From Flavivirga spongiicola (GTDB lineage: Bacteria > Bacteroidota > Bacteroidia > Flavobacteriales > Flavobacteriaceae), in assembly GCF_030540825.1 (NCBI RefSeq), contig NZ_JAUOEO010000001.1:2577001-2641000 (forward strand): 64,000 bases of DNA, given 5' to 3'. The translations under genes and the position numbers were made by a program. Each line of letters starts with the position of its first letter. Within the stretch, counting starts at the first letter, position 1. Under the pieces are notes generated by a model. It was given only the letters and a program-made list of their open reading frames with translations, had not been told where the DNA came from and did not search any database. This document shows, piece after piece, positions 39,921-57,064 of the stretch.

Positions 39921-40195
39921 GTTCTTTCTGATTTATACCCCTAAATTTAATAGATTTGTAAACTTAAGAAATGTATAGTTCATTGCTGCGTCAGGCTAAC
40001 AGTTTGATAGTTTTATGTTTGCAAAACCACTATTAAAGCAGTTTAGTTATGTTTTTTTATATTTCAGGTTTTGAAAACCCGTTTTTATAAAGTTTAAACA
40101 GCTTAAATAGCTCATTACTTATTCCGATAATTTAATTGTATTTTCACGCAACGAACCATAGAAACACGTTACCACATATAAAAACTGAACGCAAA

Positions 40196-40954
40196 TTGAA
40201 ATCTATAATTACAATATTTATTTTTATCACTTTTCATTCATTTAGTCAAAACCTGAAAGAATTTGAAACAAAAATTGAAATGAACTTCGATTTTGGAATT
40301 CAAGTACAGAATGACTGGAAAGAAAGAAACCAATTGTTTAAAGATTTAGAATCTGAAAAGAAAAGTTGGGACAATCTGACTGAAAAAGAGTTGAAACTGT
40401 TTGAAAAATATGACGAGACTTATAACACAATGTGGGATATTGAAGGTGGTGGTTGCAGCTGGTATTGTGGTGCTGGAGATTATACAGTTAACTCTTCATC
40501 ATTTTTAAAAAATCAGAATAAAAATTCTTATGAGATAAATAACATCAATGATTTTAGTTATCAAACAGCTTGGGTTGAAGGAATAAAAGGTTACGGAATT
40601 GGAGAATTTATTGAGTTCACATTTGTTCCAAAACATCCGAGAGTAACAGTTATTAAAATTGCTAATGGTTATATAAAAAGTAAGGAAGCTTGGAAAAATA
40701 ATTCGCGAGTAAAGAAACTTAAAATGTATGTTAACGATACAGTTTATGGAATAATTAATCTAAAAGATGTTTATTCTTTACAATCAATTAAATTAGAAAA
40801 ACCAATTGGACATTCTGAAAGAAAAGATTATGAAAAACTACAAAAGATGCCAAAATGGAAAATAAGATTTGAGATTATGGAAGTTTATAAAGGAGATAAG
40901 TACGATGACACAGCAATATCCGAAATATTTTTTGACGGAATAGATGTGCATTAA
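40196..40954 (+). CDS. Secreted protein with NADase-type glycan-binding (discoidin-like) domain
   Basis: The TTG at 40196 is preferred; it gives a clean signal peptide (IITIFIFITFHSFSQ) and lies 19 bp after the unit boundary. An ATG frame opens at 40136 but crosses that boundary. The mature protein has a Cys pair in GGGCSWYCGAGD. Its C-terminal half (TAWVEGIKGYGIGEFIEFTF, IKIANGYIKSKEAWKNNSRVKKLKM) matches the discoidin-like domain known from NAD glycohydrolase-type proteins. No catalytic domain is apparent. Confidence 0.7.
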   Translation: MKSIITIFIFITFHSFSQNLKEFETKIEMNFDFGIQVQNDWKERNQLFKDLESEKKSWDNLTEKELKLFEKYDETYNTMWDIEGGGCSWYCGAGDYTVNSSSFLKNQNKNSYEINNINDFSYQTAWVEGIKGYGIGEFIEFTFVPKHPRVTVIKIANGYIKSKEAWKNNSRVKKLKMYVNDTVYGIINLKDVYSLQSIKLEKPIGHSERKDYEKLQKMPKWKIRFEIMEVYKGDKYDDTAISEIFFDGIDVH

Positions 40955-40962
40955 AAATTACG

Positions 40963-41097
40963 TGTGGTAACACCGTATAAAATTTATTGCTAGTTCTAGC
41001 CTACTTACGAAAATCCTCACGGATTTTCTATTCGGTTTTTATTTGCTAAATTAAGTGCTTAAACACGCAACAAATCATATACAAATACTTTAGCCAC
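40963..41097. other. Spacer 1 of the cassette-like array
   Basis: It begins TGTGGTAACACCGTATAAAA and ends with TTAGCCAC, the start tag of the next unit. The interior has a hairpin GAAAATCCTCACGGATTTTC and the segment GCCTACTTACG, both shared with the spacers at 45971 and 45291. Confidence 0.6.
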
Positions 41098-41113
41098 AAT
41101 CAGAAATACGAAA

Positions 41114-41815
41114 ATGGAAGAAAAAGAGAAGCCAAGACTTTCGAGATTAACAGCTATTCTTACCCAACTGCAATCCAAAAGAATTATTACAGCAAAACAA
41201 CTGGCCGAAAAGCATGATGTAAGTGTAAGAACTATTTATAGAGATATTCGCACACTCGAAAAATCAGGAATACCTATTGTGACCGAAGAAGGAAAAGGCT
41301 ATTCTATCATGGAAGGCTATCATCTTCCACCTGTTCTTTTCACAGAAGACGAAGCCAATGCATTAATCACTATTGAACAATTAGCTATTAAAAACAAAGA
41401 CCTCTCATTTGTTAAAAACGTAACTAGTGCCATAGAAAAAATAAAAGCCATTTTACGATACTCTCAAAAGGGGAACGCAGATTTGTTGGCGGACCGAATT
41501 TATTTTAGCGGGAACAACAATGAAGAAAAAACGAGCAGCAACCTAATGCAGATACAATCGGCTATTACCCAATATAAAGTTATAGCAATTGACTATACTT
41601 CTTCTGAAAATAAACGAACCACTCGAGAAATTGAGCCTTTTGCTATCTACAGCATCCATGGAGATTTCCTACTAGTCGCCTTTTGTCGATTACGCAATGA
41701 TTTTAGACACTTCAGAATAGATTTTATTGAAAAGCTTGTGACTGAAAGCCAAACATTTAGTCCACACAATATGACCATAAAGGAGTATTTCGAAAAATAT
41801 GTAAAAAATCAATAA
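41114..41815 (+). CDS. WYL-domain transcriptional regulator (YafY/DeoR-type HTH)
   Basis: 233 aa with an N-terminal HTH_11 domain (RITAILTQLQSKRIITAKQLAEKHDVSVRTIYRDIRTLEKSGIPIV as split along residues 10-55) and a WYL ligand-sensing region (YKVIAIDYTSSENKRTTREIEPFAIYSIHGDFLLVAF). It is followed 68 bp later by a DUF4345 gene in the same unit, which it probably controls. TTGACA-type sequence after its stop is seen but not needed to explain expression. Confidence 0.88.
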   Translation: MEEKEKPRLSRLTAILTQLQSKRIITAKQLAEKHDVSVRTIYRDIRTLEKSGIPIVTEEGKGYSIMEGYHLPPVLFTEDEANALITIEQLAIKNKDLSFVKNVTSAIEKIKAILRYSQKGNADLLADRIYFSGNNNEEKTSSNLMQIQSAITQYKVIAIDYTSSENKRTTREIEPFAIYSIHGDFLLVAFCRLRNDFRHFRIDFIEKLVTESQTFSPHNMTIKEYFEKYVKNQ

Positions 41816-41883
41816 TACCCTTGACACACCTCTGTCACAGCCACAATTTACATTTGCAGAAATATTAATTAAAAAATCTAAAA

Positions 41884-42276
41884 ATGGAAATCATCAGAAT
41901 CGTAATCTTAACATTATCAGCTTTAATGCTTGTCTTTGTAGGTATAATGAGGTTAAGCAACCCAATAAAAACATATTTAAAAAGCTCAGGAATCAGACTA
42001 GAAAATGATACCAGTTTATTAAATGAAATGAGAGGAGTTGCTGCAGTAATGCTTTGTGCAGGAATCATTATTTTACTTGGAACATTTATCGAAAAGTTAA
42101 CTTTTAATTCGCATTTAGTCGCTTCATTAATTTTTCTAGGCTTTGCAATTGGCAGGTTAATAAGCCTAAAAGCTGATGGAAAGCCGAGTAAGCAAATTAC
42201 TCAAGGAATTTTATTTGAAATTATATTAGGTGTTGCAAATGCTTTTTGCCTGATTAATGTTTTAGGTCAAGTATAA
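41884..42276 (+). CDS. DUF4345-like four-helix membrane protein
   Basis: 130 aa with four hydrophobic helices and the pattern RLSNPIKTYLKSSGIRLENDTSLLNEMRG between helices 1 and 2, typical of small DUF4345 proteins. Function unknown. Paired with the WYL regulator upstream in one unit of the array. Confidence 0.75.
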   Translation: MEIIRIVILTLSALMLVFVGIMRLSNPIKTYLKSSGIRLENDTSLLNEMRGVAAVMLCAGIIILLGTFIEKLTFNSHLVASLIFLGFAIGRLISLKADGKPSKQITQGILFEIILGVANAFCLINVLGQV

Positions 42277-42286
42277 AATAATGCCA

Positions 42287-42423
42287 GTGGCTAACACGGT
42301 GTATAAGCAATAGCGGTTTGAGTTAGCACCCAAACCGCTATTTCATTTTATTAAAGTATATTGTCAACTGAAAGGTAGTTGCGTAAAATCCGCTACTACT
42401 CATGCACGAACACGTTGTGCTTA
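42287..42423. other. Spacer 2 of the cassette-like array with terminator hairpin
   Basis: It begins GTGGCTAACACGGTGTATAA and ends GTTGTGCTTA. Inside, AATAGCGGTTTG (42309-42320) pairs with CAAACCGCTATT (42331-42342) to form a 12-bp stem. The same hairpin with one base pair changed is at 53367-53399. Confidence 0.65.
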
Positions 42424-42463
42424 ATTATGCCATATACAGAATATCGAGAGGATAAAAAGAAAA

Positions 42464-42964
42464 ATGGATAAATCTATTTTGAGAAGAAACATTATCAACC
42501 TATATCAGTTCATTAAAGAATATTACTATTTCATCTTATCTCCTTTTATTATAGTTGTTTTTTTTCTAGTTTATTTTAACAATCAAATTGAAAAAGATGA
42601 TATAAAAGAAAATCTGACTATGACTTATGGAAAAATATATGGTTCATCAAATATTTATAAAAAATACAGTAAGCGAAACTTTAGATATAAATTTACATTT
42701 GACGGAAAAATATATACTGGAACTTCAACTGGATATATAACTGATGGGGTAAAAGAAGGAAAGATTTATAAAGTTGAATTCTCTAAAGAAAACCCTAGAC
42801 ATAACCGAATGATTTTTGATATCGAATATGAACAAAGGCTAATTTTAGACCAAAAGGGACAAGTAGCAGATACAAGCTATGTTCAAGTAGGGCAAAAATT
42901 TAGAAATAAAATGAAAGAGATAGTTGAAGAATATAAATTCAAAACTGATAGTATAAAAAACTAA
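42464..42964 (+). CDS. Hypothetical protein with one N-terminal membrane helix
   Basis: 166 aa with a membrane segment at about residues 22-41 and a soluble tail that contains FRYKFTFDGKIYTGTSTGYITDGVKEGKIYKVEFSKENP, a small beta-rich segment. I recognise no family. Its stop codon TAA forms the first three bases of the unit's end tag TAAGCACAAC, so gene and boundary are fused. Confidence 0.7.
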   Translation: MDKSILRRNIINLYQFIKEYYYFILSPFIIVVFFLVYFNNQIEKDDIKENLTMTYGKIYGSSNIYKKYSKRNFRYKFTFDGKIYTGTSTGYITDGVKEGKIYKVEFSKENPRHNRMIFDIEYEQRLILDQKGQVADTSYVQVGQKFRNKMKEIVEEYKFKTDSIKN

Positions 42965-43100
42965 GCACAACATTGTATATAAAAAATTGCTACTTTTAGC
43001 TTAACCAATGTGAGTTGCTTTGTTTGCTTGCATCTGATTTTCCTCCGGAAAATCCTTGCACACAAAGACTGAGCTTTCCATATAGATAAACGTTGCCATT
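42962..43100. other. Spacer 3 of the cassette-like array
   Basis: It begins TAAGCACAACATTGTATATAAAAAATTGC and ends AACGTTGCCATT. The outer ends TTGTATATAAA and CATATAGATAAACGTT are loosely complementary, so the whole spacer could fold on itself. The inner palindrome GATTTTCCTCCGGAAAATC gives an 8-bp hairpin. Confidence 0.6.
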
Positions 43101-43101
43101 A

Positions 43102-43848
43102 ATGAACTATAAAGAATACTCACCAACAGTTTTATTAGAACAATACATTGATACTTATTGGGTGTCAGGAAGCTCTGATTATGCAACGGAATCTAGAATC
43201 CTTCCAGATGGATATGTTGACCTTATTTTTGATATAGACAAAGACTCATACACTTTTTGGGATAATAGTATTAGGGTTTCAGGGATGATGACAACATATA
43301 GAAATGTTGTTTCTAAAGAAAATTCAGAGACTTTTGGAATTCGTTTTAAAACTGGACAGTTCAACGCTATTTCAAATATTCCACTCTCAGAAATTAAAAA
43401 TAAAACAATAAATGCTTCCGATATAATCCCAAAGTGTGACAATTTTATATACGAAGAACTAATTAGTAAAAAAAACCATCGTGATAAACTACAATTTATC
43501 GAGGAGTTTTTAATGAAACTAATCAATTGTTCAAATTCAAATAAAAATAGTTTAGTACTTTCAGTTTGTTCTTCTATTAGTTCTAATTTTCAATCGATAG
43601 ACTTGGTTAAAATAGCTCAAAATCATTTTATAAGTTTAAGGCAATTAGAGAGACGTTTTAAAGCAACTGTAGGGGTTACTATGAAAGAATACCATTCAAT
43701 AGTTCGATTTAGCAAAACGGTTGAAAGTATTTCTAATAACCCAACTAAAAGTTTATTAAATACGGCTTTTGATAATGGTTATTTTGACCATTCACACCTT
43801 ACAAAAGAGATTAATCGAATGGCAGGAATAAATCCTTCGGAGTTTTAA
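43102..43848 (+). CDS. AraC-family transcriptional regulator
   Basis: 248 aa from the ATG at 43102 (a TTG at 43093 lies inside the unit boundary and is less likely). The N-terminal half resembles the DUF6597 sensing region (EYSPTVLLEQYIDTYWVSGSS, RILPDGYVDLIF). The C-terminal AraC double helix-turn-helix contains AQNHFISLRQLERRFKATVGVTMKEYHSIVRF and ends HLTKEINRMAGINPSEF. It heads a three-gene unit with a VOC protein and a methyltransferase. Confidence 0.88.
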   Translation: MNYKEYSPTVLLEQYIDTYWVSGSSDYATESRILPDGYVDLIFDIDKDSYTFWDNSIRVSGMMTTYRNVVSKENSETFGIRFKTGQFNAISNIPLSEIKNKTINASDIIPKCDNFIYEELISKKNHRDKLQFIEEFLMKLINCSNSNKNSLVLSVCSSISSNFQSIDLVKIAQNHFISLRQLERRFKATVGVTMKEYHSIVRFSKTVESISNNPTKSLLNTAFDNGYFDHSHLTKEINRMAGINPSEF

Positions 43849-43913
43849 TTTTGTCGTTTTTTTACAAGGTATAACTCTTTTCTACCTTGTACTTTTGCCT
43901 CAAAAAATAGCGG

Positions 43914-44381
43914 ATGAGAAAATATATGCTAATATTAACCTTAGCTAGTTTTTATTTTAATTCTTATTCTCAAGCAAAAGAAAATACTATGATGAAATTA
44001 GAATCACTCACACCAAATATAATGGTGAAAAACGTAAATGCCACTTTAGATTATTACACTAAGAGGTTAGGTTTTAAATTAGTTGATACCAATCCAGAAT
44101 CTGGTCAATACGAATGGGGCTACGTGATGTTCGACAATGTTGGATTGATGTTTCAAGAAGAAAAATCATTAAAAGATGAATATAAAGAACTAGAACCACA
44201 GAATGTTGGAGGTGCTTTAACATTTTACATTCGAATTGAAAACATAAATGATCTTTATAAAAAGATAGTAGATGGGGTTAAAATAATAAAGCCTATGAAT
44301 AAAACCTTTTACGGTACCAATGAGTTTGCCATAATGGATTTAAACGGATTTATCTTAACTTTTTCTGAAACACCAAAATAG
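43914..44381 (+). CDS. Exported VOC/glyoxalase-fold protein
   Basis: 155 aa. A signal-peptide-like start (residues 1-19, ending SYSQ) precedes a vicinal oxygen chelate fold: TPNIMVKNVNATLDYYTKRLGFKLVDTNP, GYVMFDNVGLMFQ, FYIRIENINDLYKKI and FAIMDLNGFILTFSE. If the Met at residue 26 or 27 (TMMKLE) were used instead, the protein would be cytoplasmic. Substrate unknown; it lies between an AraC regulator and a methyltransferase. Confidence 0.82.
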   Translation: MRKYMLILTLASFYFNSYSQAKENTMMKLESLTPNIMVKNVNATLDYYTKRLGFKLVDTNPESGQYEWGYVMFDNVGLMFQEEKSLKDEYKELEPQNVGGALTFYIRIENINDLYKKIVDGVKIIKPMNKTFYGTNEFAIMDLNGFILTFSETPK

Positions 44382-44388
44382 ATTGTAA

Positions 44389-45042
44389 ATGGATTTTGAA
44401 AAGATAGCAAAACAATTAGCACATCCTTCAGGAGCGTTTGGAATTGAGGTGGCATTAGGAATGAATAAAATGAACAAGTTTATTAGCAAAACAACTTATG
44501 AATTATTACAAGTAAGTAACGCTGATAGAGTATTAGAAATTGGACCAGGTAACGGTAAGTTTATAAAAGATATTCTTAATTCTGGAAATAATATTTATTA
44601 CACAGGCATAGATATTTCTGAGACAATGATCGCTGAAGCTAAGAAAATTAATGACAATCTCATTAAGGCTGGATATGTAGATCTAATTCTTACAGATGTA
44701 GAAAAAATGCCATTTTTGGAAGAGGCATTTAACAAAATATGTACAGCTAATACTATTTATTTTTGGCAAAACCCGTCTGCGGTATTAAAAGAAGTTTATA
44801 GAACATTAACTAAGGACGGGCTGTTTGTTATTTCTTTTAGACCTTATATCAAGGGACAATCACTTGACTTCTCCGAGTATGGATTTACAGAATATAAATC
44901 CGAAGACGTTGAGGCTATAATACACCAAACCGAATTCAAGATAATCGAAAAAAGAGAACAAATTGAGTCTCCAATTGAGTTTAATGGACAAATCCATAAT
45001 TTGACATCTCAATATTATCTACTGCAAAAAAACTACTGCTAA
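44389..45042 (+). CDS. Class I SAM-dependent methyltransferase
   Basis: 217 aa with motif I VLEIGPGNGKFI near residue 47, the acidic post-I GIDISETMIAEAK, LTDVEKMPF and CTANTIYFWQNPSAVLKEVYRTL. This is the methyltransf_11 fold that acts on small molecules. It starts 7 bp after the VOC gene. Substrate not predictable. Confidence 0.88.
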   Translation: MDFEKIAKQLAHPSGAFGIEVALGMNKMNKFISKTTYELLQVSNADRVLEIGPGNGKFIKDILNSGNNIYYTGIDISETMIAEAKKINDNLIKAGYVDLILTDVEKMPFLEEAFNKICTANTIYFWQNPSAVLKEVYRTLTKDGLFVISFRPYIKGQSLDFSEYGFTEYKSEDVEAIIHQTEFKIIEKREQIESPIEFNGQIHNLTSQYYLLQKNYC

Positions 45043-45043
45043 C

Positions 45044-45379
45044 AATGGTAATTGTTGCATAAGGTTTTCAAAAGCTTCTTTTTATAGAGCTTTTGTTTTT
45101 AATTTAAGTATTGTTCTTTCAAAATTCAAACAGTTCAAACGGTTTTATTTTAGATGTAAATAGCCCTTTTAAGGCGAAGCTTTTCCAAATGAGCGTTCAG
45201 TTCTTCCTATGGAACCTTAAGCTTCAAACTGTCCATCGAGGCAATGATTTTGATCGATGCTGAATATATCGCTTGAGTATGACCTGAAAATCCTCACGGA
45301 TTTTCTATTCGGTTTATATTTGATAAATTAGTTAAGTTATTTAACGCAACTAATTTATCAAATATAAACGTTGTCAAAC
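45044..45379. other. Long spacer 4 of the cassette-like array
   Basis: This 335-bp stretch has no gene. It begins AATGGTAATTGTTGCATAAG and ends AACGTTGTCAAAC. An 11-bp hairpin CAAAAGCTTC-tttttatagAGCTTTTG sits near 45070. From 45288 it holds the conserved interior GAAAATCCTCACGGATTTTC shared with spacer 1. The last part pairs with itself: TTGATAAATTAGTT and AACTAATTTATCAA. Confidence 0.55.
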
Positions 45380-45400
45380 ATTTGAAAAACTTACTCTGAT

Positions 45401-45958
45401 TTGAAAAAACTACACATAATAATATTTTGTTCAATTTTAATTTCTTGTGGAATTAAAAACAATAAATCTGAATTTGACAAAATAATTATTGACAATGAAT
45501 TAAATAGCAACTTATTTAATTCAACGGAATTTATGCTCAATCCTCTGACTTTAAAAACGGAATCTGGATATGATAATGTTCCTGACTCAACTCAATATAT
45601 CGTGAAATCCAATGCGATTGTAAATAAAGACAGTTTAAGATTAATGAGGTTTGCGGAATTGAAACGAATTGGCTCAGACACACTTGAATTGAATATATTT
45701 GAGACCAATCCAGCATATAGTCAAAGTTTGATCATAAAAATAATCGATAACCGATTCAAAACAGAATTTAATTATTGGATGTCTGGCCCACCAATTGAAC
45801 CGAAAATCAAAAGACTTAAACAAGAATTAACTGTTAAATCGATTCCTAAACAAAAAGGAGAAATGATTTTTGGAAAATTCTACTTTAAAGGGATTTGCGA
45901 ATCGGATTGTAGTGGGGAAATTGAAATAGAAGGCGATTTTAAAGCAGAATTGGAATAA
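45401..45958 (+). CDS. Hypothetical lipoprotein with TTG start
   Basis: 185 aa starting at a TTG that gives a good lipoprotein signal (KKLHIIIFCSILISCG, Cys16). The remainder is beta-rich with a Cys pair in FKGICESDCSGEIEIEGDF near the C-terminus. No domain is recognised. It lies 22 bp after the boundary tag. The flanking tags of this unit do not match as well as in the earlier units, so an endpoint may have been exchanged. Confidence 0.65.
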   Translation: MKKLHIIIFCSILISCGIKNNKSEFDKIIIDNELNSNLFNSTEFMLNPLTLKTESGYDNVPDSTQYIVKSNAIVNKDSLRLMRFAELKRIGSDTLELNIFETNPAYSQSLIIKIIDNRFKTEFNYWMSGPPIEPKIKRLKQELTVKSIPKQKGEMIFGKFYFKGICESDCSGEIEIEGDFKAELE

Positions 45959-45970
45959 AAAACGAACACA

Positions 45971-46130
45971 TAACAAACCGTATAAAATTAATTGCTGGTG
46001 CAAGCCTACTTACGAAAATCGTCGCGAATTTTCTATTCGGTTTGTATTTATTAATTTAGGTGCTTGACTACGTAACTAATCTTTAACTTGTGTAAGCTAC
46101 GTGACTTAACAAACATTGAAAAAAACCTAG
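45971..46130. other. Spacer 5 of the cassette-like array
   Basis: It begins TAACAAACCGTATAAAATTAATTGC and shares its interior (CAAGCCTACTTACGAAAATC, then ATTTTCTATTCGG) with spacer 1 at high identity. It ends in less conserved sequence before an AraC gene. Confidence 0.6.
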
Positions 46131-46970
46131 ATGTCAATAGAAAACATACCGGAAATCTACATTAAGGACAAAAAAGAAAGCCCTGATGTATTCGTTTATG
46201 ATTTTAAAATGACTAATGATGTTGTTAAAAGTAAGGTTAATTTAGGCATGAATATGTTTAGCTTTTTACAAGTTGGAAAAAAGCAAGTACACTTCGCGGG
46301 AACATCAGTTGCAGTAAATAAAGACCAATCCTTACTTCTAAAAAAAGGAAATTGGCTTTGGACAGAATTATTAGATACTGATGCTATTTATTATTGTAAG
46401 CTTTTGTTTTTTTCTGAGAAAAAACTCAAAGAGTTTTTAGAAAAAAACTCTAAAAACAAACAAATAGTAAAAGATGAAATACCATATTTTGTCATTAGAA
46501 ATGATGCGTATATCATTTCATATTTAAATTCATTATCAACGATTAGTGAAGCACCAACGGTTTTTATGGAGAATTTACTTTCTATAAAATTTGAAGAATT
46601 GATGCTTTATCTTCTACAGAAATATGGAAAAAAATTTGAGTTATATCTACATTCTTTAGTAATTAAAGACACTTCTCCATTTAAAAAAATTGTTGAAAAC
46701 AAAATGCATTCTAACCTAAAATTAGAGGAAATCGCGTTTTTATGCAATATGAGTTTATCTACTTTTAAACGCCGTTTTGTTAGCGAATACAAAATGTCGC
46801 CAGGAAAATGGCTTCAGGACAAACGTCTTCAAAAGGCAAAAGAAACATTAGAACAAGGGATTTTAAAACCATCAGACATCTATTTAGATTTTGGCTATAA
46901 CAACCTTTCAAACTTCAGTATAGCATTTAAAAACAAATTCGGTTTTAACCCAAAGGAAACCTCTAATTAA
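46131..46970 (+). CDS. AraC-family transcriptional regulator
   Basis: 279 aa. The N-terminal half is a cupin-like sensing region without clear metal ligands. The C-terminal helix-turn-helix domain includes NLKLEEIAFLCNMSLSTFKRRFVSEYKMSPGKWLQ and the second helix pair ILKPSDIYLDFGYNNLSNFSIAFKNKFGFNPKE. It is followed by a DUF336 (GlcG/HbpS-like) gene in the same direction, 119 bp downstream. Confidence 0.9.
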   Translation: MSIENIPEIYIKDKKESPDVFVYDFKMTNDVVKSKVNLGMNMFSFLQVGKKQVHFAGTSVAVNKDQSLLLKKGNWLWTELLDTDAIYYCKLLFFSEKKLKEFLEKNSKNKQIVKDEIPYFVIRNDAYIISYLNSLSTISEAPTVFMENLLSIKFEELMLYLLQKYGKKFELYLHSLVIKDTSPFKKIVENKMHSNLKLEEIAFLCNMSLSTFKRRFVSEYKMSPGKWLQDKRLQKAKETLEQGILKPSDIYLDFGYNNLSNFSIAFKNKFGFNPKETSN

Positions 46971-47089
46971 GAATAACCTTTTCAAAATTGACCTTTTTTC
47001 ATAAGTTGTTGAACTGTTTTAGTAACTTGATAAGATGATTCTCGTAGTACATTTGCATCAAATTAATAACAATACTAAAACAGAAAATT

Positions 47090-47488
47090 ATGAATATTTC
47101 ATTATCACAAGCTGAAAAAATTATTTCAGCTGCAAAAGAAAAATCTAGATCTATAGACACAAAAATGAACATCGCCATTGTAGATGCAGGAGCAAATTTA
47201 GTAGCTTTTAGTCGTATGGATGGTGCTTGGTTAGGTTCACTTGACATCTCTATTAAAAAAGCGAAAACAGCTCGTTATTTTGATATGAATACTGGAATAA
47301 TAGGGGAATTATCTCAGCCAGGAGGTGCTCTATACAATATCGAGCATTCAAATAATGGACTTATTACTTTTCCAGGTGGTGTACCAATTAAAAATGCATC
47401 AGGCGAAATCATTGGAGCTATTGGAGTAAGTGGAAGTTCAGTTGAAAATGACCACGCTGTTGCAGAAGCAGGAGCATCAGCAATCTAA
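47090..47488 (+). CDS. GlcG/HbpS-family (DUF336) protein
   Basis: 132 aa covering the full DUF336 fold: [51 protein letters not shown] as two neighbouring strands and helix, [22 protein letters not shown] and [12 protein letters not shown] at the end. Members bind haem or act as small accessory proteins; no enzyme activity can be read here. Probably controlled by the AraC regulator upstream. Confidence 0.85.
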
Positions 47489-47501
47489 TAACATACAAAT
47501 T

Positions 47502-47673
47502 AAAGTAAAGAGGCTGTCTAAAAAGTAATACATTTTGTCATTCAGAGCATAGCGAAGAATCTTATATTTTTTGAATCAACACATTACAGCTTCGCTACCA
47601 CCTTCGAAGCAAAATACATTTTGTTTCTCGGTAATGTACATAATGGCATTTTTTAGACAGCTTCTTTACTTTT
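47502..47673. repeat. 172-bp inverted-repeat element, MITE-like, second copy
   Basis: The left arm AAAGTAAAGAGGCTGTCTAAAA and the right arm TTTTAGACAGCTTCTTTACTTT pair with one mismatch. The interior contains CATTCAGAGCATAGCGAAGAATCT and a TAATACATTTTG / CAAAATACATTTTG motif. The element separates the DUF336 and aquaporin genes and resembles 18435-18579. A fragment beginning GGCTGT lies at 62226. Confidence 0.8.
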
Positions 47674-47682
47674 AAGAATAAT

Positions 47683-48324: not shown

Positions 48325-48329
48325 ATAAA

Positions 48330-48386: not shown

Positions 48387-48392
48387 ATAAAA

Positions 48393-49181: not shown

Positions 49182-49188
49182 AAACTGT

Positions 49189-49320: not shown

Positions 49321-49353
49321 TCAGAAAACAACTAACTATAAAGTGGACACCTT

Positions 49354-49794
49354 ATGAAAAATATAGAAGAACCTATTATTGTAGAACAAACTTTTAACGC
49401 TTCTTTAGAAAATGTCTGGGATGCGATAACCGTACTTGATAAAATGATAAAATGGTTTTTTCCTAACATTTCATCTTTTGAACCCGTAGTTGGATTTGAA
49501 ACAGGATTTGTCATTCAGGTTGAAGATAGAATCTTTCCCCACTTATGGAAGTTGACGGAAGTAATTCCTATGAAGAAAATAGCTTACGAATGGAAATTTG
49601 AGGGTTACCCTGGCAGTGCAATTTCGCTTTTTGAACTAATGGAGGAGCATTACCAGACAAAATTAAAGTTGACCTTCACCGTCGTTGAAAATTTCCCTGA
49701 CAATATCCCTGAATTCAAAAGAGAAAGTGGTGTTGCAGGCTGGAATTATTTTATTAAAGAAAGCTTAAAAGAATATTTGGAAAAGAAAATATGA
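49354..49794 (+). CDS. SRPBCC/AHSA1-type lipid-binding-fold protein
   Basis: 146 aa with the AHSA1/START-like pattern: VEQTFNASLENVWDAITVLDKMIKWFFP, VGFETGFVIQVEDRIFPHLWKLTEVIPMKKIAYEWKFEG as successive strands, and a C-terminal helix WNYFIKESLKEYLE. Such proteins bind small hydrophobic ligands; the ligand is unknown. Confidence 0.87.
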   Translation: MKNIEEPIIVEQTFNASLENVWDAITVLDKMIKWFFPNISSFEPVVGFETGFVIQVEDRIFPHLWKLTEVIPMKKIAYEWKFEGYPGSAISLFELMEEHYQTKLKLTFTVVENFPDNIPEFKRESGVAGWNYFIKESLKEYLEKKI

Positions 49795-49871
49795 AATAAA
49801 GCATGAAAGTGTACAAGGGCACCTTGTACGCAAACAAAGCAAAATAACGAACTGTTGTATAACGGTTGTAA

Positions 49872-50258
49872 ATGAATATAATGACAAAAAAAGAAATTGC
49901 TAATAAATACATAAATTACCTTGAAAAAGGAGACATTGAAAATGTAATTAAGCTGTTTAATCAAAAAGGAATTGTTGACTCTCCTCTTTATGGAATTAAA
50001 AAAGCAAATGAGTTTTATCACGAATTGAGTAGTGACACAGCAAATTCCAAACTTCACCTATTAGGAATTTTTGAAGAAAATGACTCAAATAGTTTAGCTT
50101 TATATTTTACATATAAATGGACTTTAAAGAATAATGAAAAAGTAGAATTTGATGTTGTTGATATTATAGAGTTTGACTTACATAATAAAATCAGCAAGCT
50201 AAAGATTATATACGACACAGTTATTGCCCGAAAATTAGTTGGACAATTAGGAAGTTAA
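49872..50258 (+). CDS. SnoaL/NTF2-like fold protein
   Basis: 128 aa with KEIANKYINYLEKGDIENVIKLFNQKGIVDSPLYG, then FYHELSSDT, YFTYKWTLKNNEKVEFDVVDIIEFD and NKISKLKIIYDT, an NTF2-like small cone fold. It may be a ketosteroid-isomerase-like enzyme or a binding protein. The boundary tag before it is ACGGTTGTAAATG, which includes its ATG. Confidence 0.75.
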   Translation: MNIMTKKEIANKYINYLEKGDIENVIKLFNQKGIVDSPLYGIKKANEFYHELSSDTANSKLHLLGIFEENDSNSLALYFTYKWTLKNNEKVEFDVVDIIEFDLHNKISKLKIIYDTVIARKLVGQLGS

Positions 50259-50364
50259 AGTAGACGTATAATACTGTGTCCTGTGAAAAATACTAGTCTG
50301 GTTCTTCAAAGTTAATACTCACTTTTCATATACCAGACAGTTATGGGTAATTAAAACGAACACT

Positions 50365-50877
50365 ATGCAACAAATAAAATGGTTTGAACGAAAATTTGAA
50401 TTTTCCTTCCAGCAAAATATTTTTCCATCAATTATTGAAAGACTTGATGGTACCTTTATACGATTAAAAACAAAAATTGAGCAAATACCATCTGAATTGT
50501 TAGAAGTCAAACTGGATGGAAAATGGTCTATAAAAGAAAATATCGGACATCTAATTGATTTAGAACCATTATGGCAAGGACGACTTGACGATATCTTGGA
50601 AAATAAGGAATATTTAAGAACGGCTGATTTGGAAAACAAAAAAACAGACCTAGCTCTGCATAACAAAACGGACATTAATAATTTGCTGTCACAATTTCAG
50701 AATTTACGAAAAGTAACATTGAATAAACTAGATGAATTGACAGAACAGGATGTGTATAAAACGGCCCTGCACCCCAGACTAAAAAAACCAATGAGAACCA
50801 TGGATTTGTTTTTGTTTGTAGCTGAACACGATGACCATCATTTAGCAAGAATGACAGAAATAAAAAGGACTACCTAA
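50365..50877 (+). CDS. DinB-family protein
   Basis: 170 aa four-helix bundle with the metal-ligand histidines expected of DinB/YfiT-type proteins: NIGHLIDLEPLW near residue 54 and FVAEHDDHHLARM near residue 153. Members bind divalent metals and some act as thiol transferases. It precedes an ECF sigma factor gene by 50 bp. Confidence 0.87.
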   Translation: MQQIKWFERKFEFSFQQNIFPSIIERLDGTFIRLKTKIEQIPSELLEVKLDGKWSIKENIGHLIDLEPLWQGRLDDILENKEYLRTADLENKKTDLALHNKTDINNLLSQFQNLRKVTLNKLDELTEQDVYKTALHPRLKKPMRTMDLFLFVAEHDDHHLARMTEIKRTT

Positions 50878-50927
50878 AACAAGATGTAAAATGCACTTTA
50901 TACAAATCATTGTAGCCAATATATAAA

Positions 50928-52208
50928 ATGCCCAGAGATGAAAAGAATATATCGGACAAAATTGACCACTTATTCAGATATGAATACGGTAAACTTGTTT
51001 CTGTATTGACTAAAACTTTCGGGACTTCAAATATTGAACTTGCCGAGGATGTTGTACAGGAAGCGATGCTTGAAGCACTAAATAAATGGACTTATAGCGG
51101 CGTACCTGAAAACCCGGTTGGATGGATTTACAGAGTTGCAAAATTCAAAGCAGTAAATATCCTGAATAAGGAAAAGTACAAAAGGCAATATGCTTCTAAT
51201 GTTGTGCATCACTTGCAATCGGAATGGACTTTAGAACCTGCTTTAGAACATATTTTTACTGACAAAGAAATAGCAGACGATCAATTACGAATGATTTTTA
51301 CATGTTGTCATCCATCTATTTCATCAGATTCGCAAATCGCCTTAACGCTTAAAACACTTTGCGGGTTTAGTATTCCCGAAATTGCAAAAGCATTTTTAAC
51401 TAACGAAGAAAACATCAACAAACGATTAGTAAGAGCAAGAAAAACCATAAAAGATGCAGATATTCCTTTTTTAGTACCTGTTGGAAAGGAACTTGAAGAA
51501 CGGTTATCAAATGTTCTTGAAACCATTTATTTATTGTTCAATGAAGGCTACAATTCAACATCGGGAGATAGTATGATTCGTTTTGAGTTATGTGAAGAAG
51601 CTATTCGACTTGCTGAAATTATTGCATCCAATCCAACTATAAAATCTTCCAATACATATGCCTTATTAGCATTGATGACCTTTAATACATCTCGATTCAA
51701 TTCGAGAATTGACGAATTTGATAATCTATTGGATTTAGAGCATCAGGAAAGAAACAAATGGGATAACGAATTGATAAAAAAAGGACTCTATTATTTAGAG
51801 TTTGCCGCGACACAAGATGAGGTTTCTATTTATCATATACTAGCCACTATTTCTGCGCATCATTGTACGGCATTGACTTATGAATCTACAGACTGGATAG
51901 GCATTTTATCTTTGTATGACATGCTTATTGAAATAGATAAATCGCCAATTATCTTACTCAATCGTGCGGTTGTTCTTTCTAAAACTGGTAGTCCAAAGAA
52001 AGCACTTAAGCAACTCACTAAAATAAAAGATAACCCAGCATTCCGTTCTTATATACCATATTATACAACAAAGGCAGAACTTCATTTTCAAAATAACGCT
52101 CCGAAAATGGCCATTAAAACCTTAAATGAGCTATTAAAATTACCTTTCGATGAAAAATTTAAACCACTTATAAACAATAAATTAAGGAAGTATTCTGAAA
52201 GAAATTAA
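50928..52208 (+). CDS. ECF sigma factor with C-terminal TPR-like extension (ECF42-like)
   Basis: 426 aa, more than twice the length of a normal ECF factor. Region 2 includes EYGKLVSVLTKTFGTSNIELAEDVVQEAMLEALNKW and region 4 LCGFSIPEIAKAFLTNEENINKRLVRARKTIK. The long helical C-terminal extension (about residues 180-426; ETIYLLFNEGYNSTSG is a landmark) is typical of this group, which usually sits next to YCII/DGPF genes, as here. No anti-sigma factor is encoded nearby. Confidence 0.9.
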   Translation: MPRDEKNISDKIDHLFRYEYGKLVSVLTKTFGTSNIELAEDVVQEAMLEALNKWTYSGVPENPVGWIYRVAKFKAVNILNKEKYKRQYASNVVHHLQSEWTLEPALEHIFTDKEIADDQLRMIFTCCHPSISSDSQIALTLKTLCGFSIPEIAKAFLTNEENINKRLVRARKTIKDADIPFLVPVGKELEERLSNVLETIYLLFNEGYNSTSGDSMIRFELCEEAIRLAEIIASNPTIKSSNTYALLALMTFNTSRFNSRIDEFDNLLDLEHQERNKWDNELIKKGLYYLEFAATQDEVSIYHILATISAHHCTALTYESTDWIGILSLYDMLIEIDKSPIILLNRAVVLSKTGSPKKALKQLTKIKDNPAFRSYIPYYTTKAELHFQNNAPKMAIKTLNELLKLPFDEKFKPLINNKLRKYSERN

Positions 52209-52295
52209 TTTTTTTTTGATTTCAATGTCCTTTTTGATGTCTTTCATTTGACTTTAGGTCATAACAATATTATTAATCATTCAAGAAATTAAATT

Positions 52296-52652
52296 ATGCA
52301 AGAGTTTATGATTTTTATCAAAACAAAAGGAGACCATTTAGCAGAACTTTCTCCAGAAGAACAACAAGCCCACGTCCAAAAAATTGGAAAATATATCGGA
52401 GGGCTTATGGAATCCGGAAAATTGAAAGGCGCACAACCTTTGGAAATGGACGGAGCAATTATTCATGGAAATAAAGGCGTTTTTAAAGATGGCCCATTTA
52501 ACGAATCGAAAGAAGTAATCGTTGGATACTTCCACATTGTGGCCGAAAACCTAGAAGAAGCCATTGAAATTGCAAAAGCAAACCCCATGTTTGATGATGC
52601 AGAAGCGACCATTGAGGTTAGACCTATTAAGCAAATGGACGGTATCAACTAA
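52296..52652 (+). CDS. YCII-related (DGPF-type) protein
   Basis: 118 aa with EFMIFIKTKGDHLAELSPEEQQAHVQKIGKYIGGLMESGKL, the motif KDGPFNESKEVIVGYFHIVAENLEEAIEIAKANP and IEVRPI at the end. These are DGPF/YCII proteins found beside ECF42 sigma factors. Catalytic role unknown. Confidence 0.9.
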   Translation: MQEFMIFIKTKGDHLAELSPEEQQAHVQKIGKYIGGLMESGKLKGAQPLEMDGAIIHGNKGVFKDGPFNESKEVIVGYFHIVAENLEEAIEIAKANPMFDDAEATIEVRPIKQMDGIN

Positions 52653-52664
52653 AAATCGAATATT

Positions 52665-52868
52665 ATGAATAATCAAAATAATACTATAGCCTACGATGGA
52701 CATTGTGCCTTTGCCGTAAGTACAGGAAAAATAGATATAAAAGGTGGTAAACACCGTTTGACAATTGATGGTAAAACCTATCTTTTCTCAAACTCGATTG
52801 CCAAGTTCTTATTTAAATTGTTGCCCAACCGAATTGAAAAAGCAGAAGTAAACTGGCAAAACAAATAA
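52665..52868 (+). CDS. Short YHS-domain protein
   Basis: 67 aa. The stretch YDGHCAFAVSTG, IDGKTYLFSNSIAKFL and IEKAEVNWQ aligns with the C-terminal part of the longer YHS protein encoded 1 bp downstream, so the two are tandem paralogues. It has one Cys and lacks a signal peptide. YHS domains are linked to copper or redox proteins. Confidence 0.75.
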   Translation: MNNQNNTIAYDGHCAFAVSTGKIDIKGGKHRLTIDGKTYLFSNSIAKFLFKLLPNRIEKAEVNWQNK

Positions 52869-52869
52869 A

Positions 52870-53346
52870 ATGAAAAAGAGAACAAAAATAATACTCGTAT
52901 TGTTCGTAGTAATAATTACATTGGTTTTTACAGTTGCAAAGGTAAAACGCATATCTCCACTATCTTGGGGAGATAAAGGAGTTAATAAACCTATGTTTTC
53001 AAATCAAGCCATAAATGGCTATGATGCCGTGACCTATTTTATAGAGAACAAAGCTGTACTTGGCAATGAAACGTATTCATATAACTGGAAAAATGCTGAT
53101 TGGAATTTTTCATCAGAAGAAAACAAGAATTTGTTTATTGGAAACCCTGGGAAATATGCCCCACAGTATGGAGGTTATTGTGCCTTTGCAGTAAGTAAAG
53201 GGTTTACTGCGAATACTAATCCTAACTCTTTTGAGGTTATAGACGGTAAACTATATCTTTTTGATGGTGAAGGCGTAAAAGCAGATTGGAAAGAAAATCT
53301 AAAAGAAAATTTACAGAAATGTGAAACGAACTGGAAGAAATACTAA
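52870..53346 (+). CDS. Membrane-anchored YHS-domain protein
   Basis: 158 aa with an N-terminal membrane helix (residues 7-23) and an extracytoplasmic YHS domain: AINGYDAVTYFIENKAVLG, YSYNWKNADWNFSSEENKNLF, YAPQYGGYCAFAVSKG and KLYLFDGEGVKADWKENL. It begins 1 bp after the shorter YHS gene. The conserved single Cys near residue 108 suggests metal or haem contact. Confidence 0.87.
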   Translation: MKKRTKIILVLFVVIITLVFTVAKVKRISPLSWGDKGVNKPMFSNQAINGYDAVTYFIENKAVLGNETYSYNWKNADWNFSSEENKNLFIGNPGKYAPQYGGYCAFAVSKGFTANTNPNSFEVIDGKLYLFDGEGVKADWKENLKENLQKCETNWKKY

Positions 53347-53701
53347 CTACAAAAAGATATAAAAGTAATAGCGATTTGAGTGCTACCCAAATCGCTATTT
53401 TGTTTTAATTATGTAAATTGTAAACAGAAAGTAGCACTTTTTAAACGAAAAGAATGCCACGACGCTCTGCGTCGTGGTTTCCATTGAAATTGCCATTCTC
53501 ATGAAAATAGGAATCTAAAATATAGATTTTTTTTTGACCCAAAAGTCAAAACTTTGTACTCAACTTGATTGGGTATGAAATGAGCGAAATACCTCTATGG
53601 CTCTGCCTCGAGGATAGTTCGTTTCAAAAATCCTTTATTTTACCACTATCCTTTAATGCAAGACCGCCGTTAAGGTGCTTTGAAAATAAACCAAACAATA
53701 G
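53347..53701. other. Intergenic region with terminator and other hairpins
   Basis: AATAGCGATTTG / CAAATCGCTATT (53367-53399) forms a 12-bp stem almost identical to the one at 42309-42342. CCACGACGC-tct-GCGTCGTGG (53457-53477) is a perfect 9-bp hairpin of much higher GC content than its surroundings. The remainder holds nothing I can identify. Confidence 0.55.
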
Positions 53702-54214
53702 ATGATTGAGGTAAAGAAATATTCTGAATTATTAGAACAAACTAAAGACAAGTTAAATGCATTTATCAAAGGTGAGTTTGGACATATTCCCATTGTAAAT
53801 GAAATGGAATGGGCAATTCCGGATTGGACAATTATCTTTTATGAAAATGACCAAATTGCGACTTTCTACAATATTATCGAAACCCATATTAGGATTGATA
53901 ATAAGATATTCAAAGTTGCTGGTATAAATAATGTCATAACACCGAAGAAATTTCGAAAAAAGGGATACGCATCTAAAACGTTAGAGGCTACAGAAGATCT
54001 AATTTTTGATGATTTGAACTGTGAAATGGGAGTCTTGCTTTGTGCTGACAATTTGATTCCCTTTTATGAAAAATTAAATTGGTACAAAGTAGATTGTCCA
54101 GTTTATTTTGAACAATCAACAGGAGAAAAATTATGGAAGGCAAATACGATGTTATTATCGAAAAAGGAAAAAATGAATCCTCAAAGGATTAAATTAAAAG
54201 GGTTGCCTTGGTAA
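53702..54214 (+). CDS. GNAT-family N-acetyltransferase
   Basis: 170 aa. The acetyl-CoA-binding region appears as NNVITPKKFRKKGYASKTLEATEDLIFDDLN with the Q/RxxGxA-type loop RKKGYA near residue 86, followed by GVLLCADNLIPFYEKLNWYKV. Substrate unknown. Confidence 0.82.
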   Translation: MIEVKKYSELLEQTKDKLNAFIKGEFGHIPIVNEMEWAIPDWTIIFYENDQIATFYNIIETHIRIDNKIFKVAGINNVITPKKFRKKGYASKTLEATEDLIFDDLNCEMGVLLCADNLIPFYEKLNWYKVDCPVYFEQSTGEKLWKANTMLLSKKEKMNPQRIKLKGLPW

Positions 54215-54470
54215 ATAACACCACAACAAAAACGTACTCTAAATAATGGCTGAAACAGTAAATTTTTAAACGGTTTTATCTCACTTCGAAATTCTAGTTG
54301 TTAGACCAGCAATTTGTCATATTATTTCTATAACTATAACAATATATTCACTCACCTTTATTATTTTTAAGTCTCCTAAAAGACATATACTTATGTATAT
54401 AACCTATTAGGAAGTTAAGAAATGGTGTTTGTGAGCAAACCCATGTTGTAGGTCATTAGCATTAAGGAAT
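54215..54470. other. Intergenic region, no gene seen
   Basis: This has TAACACCACAACAAAAACG right after the GNAT gene, which is a diverged spacer start, and ACCCATGTTGTAGGTCATTAGC before the next gene. No open frame or strong hairpin lies between. Confidence 0.35.
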
Positions 54471-54968
54471 ATGAAAAACATAAAACCACTTGTCTTTTTC
54501 GGGCTGATTCTATTATTCAATATAACGTCTGGATGTCAGCGTCAAAAAAAAGACAGGGTGGAAAAACCTGTAAATACTTCGATTTCTGACCTTGAAGCCA
54601 CTATAGAAAAAGAAATAGACAGTTTTTATACGGTGTACAAACGGTTCGATTATGATTGGATTGATTTTTTTGAAGATGAATTCACCAATGTCTTTCCAGA
54701 CACACCAATTCGTAAAATTTCAAAAGATTCGACAAAAGCTATTTGGAAAAGAATTTATGACAAATATGATGTCCAACTTCTTTCTCACGGGAAACCATCT
54801 TTCATTACTTCGGAAGAGATGGTCATTTCCCATAATAGTTTTAATGAAATTTTTATTAATAAGCAAAGTCAAGACACCATTAAAAATGTTGGAACCTATA
54901 TTATTGCCTGGAAAAGACAACCGGACAACTCGTGGAAAATTGTATTTGAAACGGTTCAGAATAATTAA
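54471..54968 (+). CDS. Lipoprotein with SnoaL/DUF4440-like domain
   Basis: 165 aa with a lipobox (NITSGC, Cys22). The fold fits the NTF2-like DUF4440 group: KEIDSFYTVYKRFDYDWIDFFEDEFTNVFPDTP, RIYDKYDVQLLSHGKPSFITSEEMVIS and AWKRQPDNSWKIVFETVQ. It would be anchored on the periplasmic face of a membrane. Function unknown. Confidence 0.75.
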   Translation: MKNIKPLVFFGLILLFNITSGCQRQKKDRVEKPVNTSISDLEATIEKEIDSFYTVYKRFDYDWIDFFEDEFTNVFPDTPIRKISKDSTKAIWKRIYDKYDVQLLSHGKPSFITSEEMVISHNSFNEIFINKQSQDTIKNVGTYIIAWKRQPDNSWKIVFETVQNN

Positions 54969-55154
54969 TAATACAATCTAAGATTAGAAAATCAGGTAGG
55001 TTAACATCAAGAAAATCAGGAGGTGTTTGGAAAGCCTGCTACTTATTTTGAAATGAGAAATAACCATCGATAGCATTACATAAAATTTATTGAAACACAT
55101 TTAGGAATCGTTGTAAGCAATACCTTAGAAGCTGAAATTAAATTTAAAAATGAT

Positions 55155-55457
55155 ATGTACTCAATAGTTTGGAAGTATAAAGTGAATGAAGAAAATCAAA
55201 CAGAATTTGAATCAGAATATGGAAAATTCGGAACTTGGTCAAGACTATTTATGAGTTCTGATAATTATAAAGGTTCTTTTTTACATAAAAGCCCAGATAT
55301 GAATGATACTTATCTTCTTATTGATACTTGGACTGACGAACAATCCTATAAAGATTTTAAAAATATAAATGAAAGTACTTACGAAGATTTAAGCTCTGGA
55401 TTCGAAAAACTATATGAAACAGAGGAAAAGATAGGAGCATTTAACGCGGTTAATTGA
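55155..55457 (+). CDS. Antibiotic biosynthesis monooxygenase-like (ABM) small protein
   Basis: 100 aa with the dimeric alpha-beta barrel pattern: YSIVWKYKVNEENQTEFESEYG, FLHKSPDMNDTYLLIDTWTDEQSYKDF and a C-terminal helix. The frame stays open upstream to 55074 without a good start codon, which may be a remnant of another gene. Activity unknown. Confidence 0.7.
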   Translation: MYSIVWKYKVNEENQTEFESEYGKFGTWSRLFMSSDNYKGSFLHKSPDMNDTYLLIDTWTDEQSYKDFKNINESTYEDLSSGFEKLYETEEKIGAFNAVN

Positions 55458-55524
55458 ACTAATTGCTAGAAAAAATATGGCTAATATTATTTTAGGATTG
55501 ACAAATGACTAAAAAACCTTTTTA

Positions 55525-56142
55525 ATGAAAAAACAAGATTCTGCAGGATCATTGCATGCATTTACGAAAATAAAAAGTTATCTGTTGGTGATCATTTTGT
55601 CAATTGTTCCTTTTGTATTTCGGGCTTTAAATTTTCCGATTCTTTTAAAATCAATAGGATTGACGGAGTTTGAATTTAATCTCCCTGAAATTCTACAAGG
55701 AAGTGATTTTCTTGTTGCTAATCATTCAAAAGGAATGTTGTGGTTATTAATTATTGGAGAACTCTATGTGCTTTATGTATTTATTCGTTTGATAATAGAA
55801 TTATTAAAAGATGCCACAACTAGTAGAAAAGTTAATAAATATCTAATAATAATAACTGTAGTAGGGATTGTTTCTGGATCGTGGGCTTATGGTTTTAATT
55901 TATGGATTGTGGCACCTCCTATTTTTGCTTTAATTTTACACGCGTTTGGTATTAAACCACTTCTATATTTTATAGGAACCGGTATGTTTGCCGGGGTAGC
56001 TGTTTTCGAATTTAATTTTTGGTATATTATCATTTGTCTTTCAATTTTAGCCCTGTTCTTTTCTATTTATGGCATACTAAAAATTTACTATCGATACGAT
56101 TCAAAAAAAACATCTAAAAAAAAGGGAGACTATACCGCTTGA
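55525..56142 (+). CDS. Hypothetical five-helix membrane protein
   Basis: 205 aa with hydrophobic segments near residues 20-40, 70-90, 105-125, 128-150 and 160-185, and a Lys-rich tail. The loop between helices 1 and 2 contains LQGSDFLVANHSKGMLW. I know no family. It is not clearly linked to its neighbours. Confidence 0.65.
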   Translation: MKKQDSAGSLHAFTKIKSYLLVIILSIVPFVFRALNFPILLKSIGLTEFEFNLPEILQGSDFLVANHSKGMLWLLIIGELYVLYVFIRLIIELLKDATTSRKVNKYLIIITVVGIVSGSWAYGFNLWIVAPPIFALILHAFGIKPLLYFIGTGMFAGVAVFEFNFWYIIICLSILALFFSIYGILKIYYRYDSKKTSKKKGDYTA

Positions 56143-56338
56143 TTCAGATAAAAGCAATGAGAAAAGAAACATTATAGTAAATCAATTAGTTATTATACAG
56201 ATCATGATTTCTTCTCTGTCGATTCGTTTTCGTTATTAAAAATAATCAAGCTGTATTTGAACTCTATTTTATATCTTAGTAATAACTAGCTTCAATAAAA
56301 CTAAGCAGTATTGCTTCAGCTGAAACGTTAATGTACAT

Positions 56339-56920
56339 ATGAGAAAAACACTTCTAATAGTATTATTTTTCAACCTCAATTTTTGTTTTTCACAAACAAA
56401 AATTGAGCAATTTAAATTATCTGATTGCGCTCTTGAATTGACAAAACAAAAAGTTATTTATGACCCAAGTTACTTTTCAATTGATTATCCAAATGGCGAC
56501 GTACCAAGTGATAAAGGAGTTTGCACAGACGTTGTAATTCGTGCTTATCGAAAAATGGGAATTGATTTACAGAAAAATGTTCATGAAGATATGAAAGCTA
56601 ACTTCAGTGCTTATCCAAAAAATTGGGGACTTAAAACAACAGATAAAAATATTGACCATCGAAGAGTACCTAATTTAATGACCTTTTTTAAGCGAAAAGG
56701 TGCTGAAAAAACAATCTCTGATAAGGCGAAAAATTATGTGCCTGGAGACATCGTTTGTTGGAATTTAGGTGGAGCAGTAACTCATATTGGAATTGTTGTC
56801 CACAAAAAATCAGCAGACGGAAAACGGCATTTAATTGTTCATAATATTGGTGATGGACAGGTTTTAGCGGACTGTCTTTTTGATTATAAAATTATTGGAC
56901 ATTACAGGTATGAAGAATAA
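56339..56920 (+). CDS. DUF1287-family secreted cysteine-hydrolase-like protein
   Basis: 193 aa with a signal peptide (residues 1-19, CFSQ) and the DUF1287 pattern: NGDVPSDKGVCTDVVIRAYRKMGIDLQK with a probable catalytic Cys near residue 62, PGDIVCWNL, THIGIVVHKKS and HLIVHNIGDGQVLADCLF. The family belongs to the NlpC/P60-like peptidase group. Likely acts on cell-wall peptides, though that is inference. Confidence 0.85.
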   Translation: MRKTLLIVLFFNLNFCFSQTKIEQFKLSDCALELTKQKVIYDPSYFSIDYPNGDVPSDKGVCTDVVIRAYRKMGIDLQKNVHEDMKANFSAYPKNWGLKTTDKNIDHRRVPNLMTFFKRKGAEKTISDKAKNYVPGDIVCWNLGGAVTHIGIVVHKKSADGKRHLIVHNIGDGQVLADCLFDYKIIGHYRYEE

Positions 56921-56924
56921 AACA

Positions 56925-57064
56925 TTTGTGCTAACAAAGTGTTCTATAAAAATTGCCAATTTAGACCAAATTAAAGGTAGGTACTTGCTTTGTTAGGTCT
57001 GATTTAATTGCAAAAGATTATCGTATAAAAACTGTACTATTCTTATATATGACCGTTGTGCTTA
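56925..57064. other. Last clear spacer of the cassette-like array
   Basis: It begins TTGTGCTAAC, then AAAGTGTTCTATAAAAATTGCC, the conserved left-end pattern, and ends CCGTTGTGCTTAAT. The end tag GTTGTGCTTAAT is identical over 12 bp to the tag at 42414, 14.6 kb away. Confidence 0.6.

Follow-up and report, generated by a model that had tools for sequence, protein, structure and literature searches.

An integron-like cassette array in Flavivirga spongiicola and the patch-less tyrosine recombinases that head similar arrays in its relatives

Introduction

How are genes moved when each is enclosed by a private pair of complementary tags and the neighborhood encodes no recombinase? This question is raised by a 64,000-nt stretch of the Flavivirga spongiicola genome (assembly GCF_030540825.1, contig NZ_JAUOEO010000001.1, positions 2,577,001 to 2,641,000 of the forward strand), referred to here as the window. 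A preliminary description of the window reported four successive units in which the few bases before the gene(s) are the reverse complement of those after, and suggested that an unknown or distant recombinase, absent from the window, could move them as attC-like cassettes. All four tag pairs were found in place when the window sequence was checked. The proposal is now supported by the tags, by units that behave as blocks and by a recombinase that heads such arrays in relatives. The window is very probably the orphaned array, resembling a cluster of attC sites lacking integron integrases (CALIN), of a cassette system that resembles integrons but has a patch-less integrase; the system is widespread across Flavobacteriaceae and also occurs in other Bacteroidota. 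The repeated spacers between the units are probably the recombination sites of this gene-shuffling system, and the recombinase is related to XerA and IntI but patch-less.

Results

The spacer after unit 1 (site S1, Table 1) was used as a BLAST query and found 27 places in its own genome. A covariance model (R1) was built from an alignment (A2) of 18 sites, all from this genome. R1 detects 61 sites there at E<=1, of which 50 reach E<1e-3. The top strand of a site reads tag' - AAC - 3 bases - GTATA... (L'') - variable part - ...TATAC (L') - 6 bases - GTT - tag, and the variable part mostly contains a hairpin. In A2, 87.6% of the cells are paired versus 26-40% in slid controls. Pairing of the R boxes partly fails in A2, because the two tags at one arrayed site come from different cassettes. 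R1 detects sites in 250 of the 299 Flavobacteriaceae genomes searched (this being the GTDB family of the window, named via its Flavivirga members; at most 10 candidates scored per genome), and R1 matches occur in 51 of 395 genomes from other families of the phylum. The base 5' of GTT is C in 374 of 379 attC-like sites and belongs to the upstream site. The median cassette length is 752 bp. One array (L155-L157, genome G113) packs 76 sites into 60 kb; the same genome carries one family of 39 related cassettes with a median length of 326 bp.

A2 also seeded a set of nhmmer models, which were applied to 41 sources (20 recombinase-centered loci, 20 array loci and the window). They gave 411 matches, 393 reaching both ends, and after removal of overlaps 337 consecutive pairs less than 4 kb apart with exact GTT and AAC. 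A perfect 6-base tag is common to 293 of the 337 pairs, versus 1.67% of 20,000 random pairs and 4.56% of 4,804 within-locus shuffles (repeated cassettes included). Complementarity continues as far as base 11, base 8 being the exception. A second collection, the best 80 named loci of a longer recombinase list, yielded perfect tags in 87 of 103 pairs (1.2% when shuffled). Without L188, its sole locus sharing sequence with the first set, the count is 77 of 92 (1.1% when shuffled). Tag complementarity, which the preliminary description had singled out as a check on the cassette model, thus lies far above the controls in both locus sets. An unanchored search of the window (GTT+6 bases ... 6 bases+AAC, 300-2500 bp apart) found 55 pairs versus a mean of 28 and a maximum of 39 in 30 Markov-1 sequences; the span first described (40168 to 57064) held 15 of them, versus 17 and 10 in two other 17-kb stretches. 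Since this search is no richer in that span than elsewhere, the tags alone are unconvincing. They convince because they sit at the ends of a recognizable, modeled site and follow the rule across many loci. Of the window's five units between 40168 and 45971, four conform, one of them with one mismatch, and unit 5 fails.

When the recombinase list and the R1 site list were compared, both pointed to one place: arrays are headed by a tyrosine recombinase gene encoding about 300-440 aa. The first locus set comprised 20 of the 35 best-scoring recombinases, taken by score and contig room with 20 kb each. All 104 nhmmer sites in it are on the recombinase strand and on its 3' side. Three of the 20 loci are siteless, and two of these lie on contigs that end 1.0 and 1.7 kb further on. 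R1, trained on the F. spongiicola genome only, found 112 sites in 18 of the 20 loci, again all on the same strand and 3'. The second collection came from Flaviramulus, Maribacter, Arenibacter, Aquimarina, Winogradskyella, Gillisia, Psychroflexus, Xanthomarina, Flavivirga and other genera; 146 of its 153 sites are 3' and on the same strand (in 333 kb) and seven are on the 5' side (in 702 kb), or 133 of 140 without L188. Among loci with 3 kb of downstream sequence, 31 of 41 have a site. A tyrosine recombinase elsewhere in array-carrying genomes, which the preliminary description had suggested looking for, does exist and heads the arrays, in a sister species (G685) at the orthologous locus. No recombinase of this type was found in the F. 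spongiicola genome itself, and tblastn with the integrase gave no match in the window. This genome does encode two identical 356-aa tyrosine recombinases on different contigs (L005, C2:332065; L006, C3:18250), perhaps of a mobile element.

The first cassette starts with GTT and its tag 15-72 bases past the integrase stop codon. In 37 of 54 loci the downstream sequence contains its complementary partner followed by AAC, versus 65 of 1,080 shuffled tags (about 6%). Past the stop codon and before a GTT in this stretch there is a dyad of 22-30 bases whose sequence varies by locus while its symmetry is kept (symmetry >=80% in 40 of 80 loci versus 8 of 800 shuffled), and it may be regarded as attI-like. 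By eye, the base 5' of GTT in these candidate attI-like sites is T or C in most. A 395-kb Persicobacter plasmid (CP012862.1, L301) encodes an integrase with 44% identity; the first-cassette tag was not found there.

The catalytic residues R, K, H, R, H and Y are complete in 29 of 29 aligned recombinases. The K-to-H stretch is 64-65 residues in all 29, versus 106 in 18 of 18 IntI rows (17 distinct, as L268 and L281 are one gene) and 70-72 in the Xer-like proteins of F. spongiicola. The insert of about 40 residues that is present in the 18 IntI rows is missing from all 29, and alignment to VchIntIA leaves out VchIntIA residues 179-242. Four of the proteins score 206-225 bits against the integron integrase model TIGR02249 (cut-off 265) and 214-241 bits against the XerA model NF040815, their highest-scoring curated family. 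Structures 4a8e and 5hxy are among the best matches of the catalytic part. Such proteins carry the NCBI label 'site-specific tyrosine recombinase/integron integrase'. An AlphaFold model (predicted local distance difference test, pLDDT, 82; predicted template modeling score, pTM, 0.58) shows, besides the domains typical of recombinases, an additional N-terminal one of about 70 residues, which in the long form of the enzyme bears a weak likeness to XPB/HARP folds.

The R-box consensus of integrons is GTTRRRY, a motif present in only 42 of 386 sites of the Flavobacteriaceae type. Their L arms are ungapped at the start in 345 of 353 sites, and positions 13-16 are paired in the same register in 60-79%. 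Mismatches across 18 positions of the top strand are mainly A.C (790) with some G.T (97); A.C also occupies base 8 of the R stem in 78% of 293. Top-strand A.C mismatches are T.G wobbles on the bottom strand. In computed folding of circular forms, restricted to those with perfect tags, the bottom strand folded better in 288 of 291 cases and the top strand in two. The canonical L'' arm, in the account given in part of PMC2727003, has two or three extrahelical bases beside heptanucleotide R boxes, and strand choice is made chiefly via the extrahelical bases. The enzyme without the insert and the sites without the bulges thus lack matching features together. Given that the recombinase is without the IntI insert and the sites without the bulged bases read by that insert, the strand may be chosen through the A.C mismatches (top) and T.G wobbles (bottom) together with the unequal 3- and 6-base spacers.

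To follow cassettes between genomes, 293 perfect-tag cassettes from 22 genomes were compared. The closest pair (G157/G113) shares 97.9% identity along 973 bp that start at -1 of the first GTT and end at +3 of the second. Of seven pairs inspected, three span the whole unit (the other two within 13 bases), and three begin <=25 bases from GTT and stop about 100-120 bases short of the end, near AAC. When 46 pairs are pooled, among them pairs within one genome, the matches start most often at -1 (7) and end most often at +3 (9). Twelve genomes of the genus were then compared with the window. Unit 3 has an 86% copy with other neighbors in G682 (contig C71), where similarity begins 33 bases ahead of GTT and ceases one base after AAC, and unit 2 has an 82% copy in the same genome (C143). 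Relatives of unit 4 (70-75%) are found in five other species. That units move as discrete blocks, a check named in the preliminary description, is favored by the whole-unit pairs between species, G157/G113 being the best, and by unit 3 with its other neighbors.

In G683 the two flanks of the window's variable stretch are adjacent and the locus is empty. In G685 an integrase gene lies 0.73 kb past the shared left flank, with an attI-like dyad and a first-cassette tag. Across the 12 genomes the integrase is long in four, in a short form in two and in fragments in three, and none of the type is found in three including F. spongiicola. Given the empty locus in G683, the integrase in G685 and the varied state of the gene in the genus, the window most likely represents the integron locus of the genus from which the integrase has been lost. 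Independent loss and gain at the locus are possible.

The features of the window are listed in Table 1. The preliminary description had extended the array from 40168 to 57064. Its left part stands, while the right end was too generous: right of S5, past 46099, the only model match in that span is the weak site S6. The base context 5' of the unit 2 tag is CTTT, not CGTT. The only Pfam match of the unit 1 protein (40196-40954) is PF25302, named for NAD glycohydrolase translocation. The PhzF-like gene is probably a decayed cassette, judging by its 78% copy in G683, which is a well-framed cassette between well-formed sites. Two further repeats were noticed: an element like a miniature inverted-repeat transposable element (47502-47672, about 170 bp, 23-nt arms 96% complementary) and a stretch of about 200 bp (53440-53640) with many matches (73-93%) across the F. 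spongiicola and sister genomes.

Table 1. Units, sites and neighboring features of the cassette array in the window
Feature	Position	Strand	Content and tags	R1 match
Variable stretch	39820..59120	.	Whole stretch; missing from G683, where both flanks adjoin	
Site S0	39960..40176	+	attC-like, about 215 bp, divergent; precedes unit 1; halves GTATAGTTCATTGC (left) and CACGCAACGAACCATAGAAACACGTT (right)	No match; by eye only
Unit 1	40168..40971	+	GTT ... AAC; one gene, open reading frame to 40954, PF25302 domain; tags GTTACCACA at 40168 / TGTGGTAAC at 40963	
Site S1	40959..41101	+	attC-like	145.5 bits, E 4.4e-25 in own genome
Unit 2	41090..42294	+	Helix-turn-helix/WYL regulator 41114-41815, DUF4345 protein 41884-42276; tags (T)TTAGCCAC at 41090 / GTGGCTAA at 42287	
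Site S2	42283..42426	+	attC-like; variable part differs	41.2 bits
Unit 3	42414..42971	+	One gene 42464-42964, no Pfam match; tags GTTGTGCTTA at 42414 / TAAGCACAAC at 42962	
Site S3	42959..43104	+	attC-like	98.4 bits
Unit 4	43093..45051	+	Three genes (DUF6597/AraC-type, glyoxalase-like, methyltransferase); tags TTGCCATT at 43093 / AATGGTAA at 45044, one mismatch	
Site S4	45044..45382	+	Long site; 3' part 45246-45382 matched	48.8 bits
Unit 5	45360..45971	+	Gene 45401-45958; tags unmatched (by eye)	
Site S5	45965..46099	+	attC-like; right end decayed	88.7 bits
PhzF-like gene	48393..49181	+	Probable decayed cassette	
Site S6	56926..57067	+	attC-like, weak; then GNAT gene 57075-57602	28.6 bits, E 0.017

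Discussion

In the system proposed here, a complete locus reads in one direction: a tyrosine recombinase gene, a short attI-like dyad, GTT, and then cassettes each with its own attC-like site. A cassette starts with GTT and its private tag and ends with the complementary tag, AAC, a hairpin-forming arm of about 120 bases and GTT. In the predicted circular form the two tags would pair and, together with the L arms, build a folded site resembling the single-stranded attC of integrons. The recombinase would cut at GTT, with the bottom strand as its substrate and circles as intermediates.

Several points weigh against this proposal. We infer recombination itself from sequence. Homologous cassette pairs between genomes are few (12), not all pairs end at unit ends, and one of the seven inspected is internal. 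The G682 copy of unit 2 has unmatched start and end tags, and the unit 2 gene pair occurs without sites in G683 (L176). The F. spongiicola genome retains 50 sites in the absence of the integrase; many stand singly at scattered places, and the proposal does not account for how they spread. Of the 41 named loci whose sequence continues for 3 kb downstream, ten are siteless, and the first-cassette test fails in 17 of 54 loci. The nhmmer model was regrown on loci that it then counts, and the co-location had already been seen in several of these genomes before they were selected by score. The surroundings of seven canonical IntI genes hold one site in 133 kb versus 110 in 367 kb around the recombinases described here, but these IntI genes come from other classes of the phylum, and distance could also explain the few sites. 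One site of the Flavobacteriaceae type (L280, genome G361) lies at 9145-9266, about 1 kb from a canonical IntI gene (10243-11250) on its divergent side, so that the partnership of integrase and site may not be exclusive. Cassette exchange between the two systems is possible at L280.

These last two observations bear on the best-surviving alternative, that the arrays are ordinary integrons with canonical attC sites served in trans by canonical IntI, and the window a plain CALIN. The logic is the same (R and L arms, a variable terminal part and private R boxes), canonical IntI exceeds the cut-off in 105 of 395 genomes elsewhere in the phylum, and L280 joins such a site to such an enzyme. The two distributions disagree within the family: TIGR02249 is over its curated cut-off in 0 of 299 Flavobacteriaceae genomes, where its sub-threshold proteins are often 370-400 aa, versus the 250 genomes with sites. 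With the rarity of GTTRRRY, the bulge-free L arms and the near-absence of sites around seven canonical IntI genes of other classes, we consider ordinary integrons unlikely.

A second alternative holds that modules are moved via dif-like sites in the style of pdif modules, either by XerC/XerD or by the patch-less enzyme in the role of a Xer protein. The top score of the enzyme against the XerA model speaks for it, and by eye the F. spongiicola genome has XerC- and XerD-like genes. pdif sites are dif-like sequences of 28 bp, unlike the hairpins of about 125 bases with private tags described here, and a dedicated enzyme stands at the array heads; this reading is very unlikely. That the spacers serve as terminators of transcription or as RNA elements of another kind, with tags arising by chance or as terminator stems, would fit the perfect, often terminator-like internal hairpin of 329 of 379 sites (no control was run for this count) and the unremarkable unanchored search, but has a negligible chance of being right given that the tags pair across the gene rather than inside the spacer (293/337) and in both locus sets, that linkage to the recombinase is one-sided and that the Rfam match was limited to a chance mir-190 (E 0.86).

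The integron-like system shares with IntI integrons (class 1 and Vibrio superintegrons) a tyrosine integrase, an attI-like head and a one-way array, hairpin sites with R''/R' and L''/L' arms, a variable terminal part and a preferred bottom-strand fold, an attI-type junction at GTT, and cassettes that behave as units by comparative evidence, some pairs not being unit-wide. It differs in that the enzyme is without the IntI insert and has an extra N-terminal domain in its long form, the L arms are bulge-free, the R box is not GTTRRRY, and the tags pair to base 11 with the usual mismatch at 8. Moreover, the integrase is in line with the cassettes (104/104 sites), whereas typical IntI genes are divergent. 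In the Treponema integrons, as far as the excerpt of PMC3607928 goes, the integrase is likewise transcribed toward attI in cassette direction; these have their own intI, and the quoted R' box GTTAGGT fits GTTRRRY. CALIN elements, in the passages taken from PMC8618304 and PMC9668308, are integrase-free site clusters as in the window, although defined by integron attC; here the sites are non-canonical and the integrase of relatives is not IntI. XerA/NF040815 recombinases are alike in the catalytic part, being the best curated family and among the best structures. Known Xer enzymes act in chromosome dimer resolution, unlike the present enzymes, which head cassette arrays. The chances are about even that this is a second, parallel or ancestral integron lineage, with a patch-less recombinase acting on single-stranded hairpin sites, strand choice by a wobble code in place of extrahelical bases and, in the long form, an N-terminal domain of possible XPB-DRD/HARP-like fold that reads distorted DNA.

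In the portion of the IntegronFinder 2.0 paper at hand (PMC9024848), Bacteroidetes proper earlier had only In0 elements and then one complete integron, in Salinibacter, while other complete integrons were in Chlorobi and Ignavibacteriae. The IntI insert is presented in an extract of PMC4792948 as the specific domain for the folded-site pathway, and in one of PMC8138268 as essential to integron function though incompletely conserved in its subgroup. If the sites recombine as proposed, the arrays would be an unrecognized gene-capture platform with traces in most sampled Flavobacteriaceae. Folded-site cassette capture could then exist without a domain held to be essential, and a working insert-free system would allow a direct test of whether integrons arose from Xer-like enzymes.

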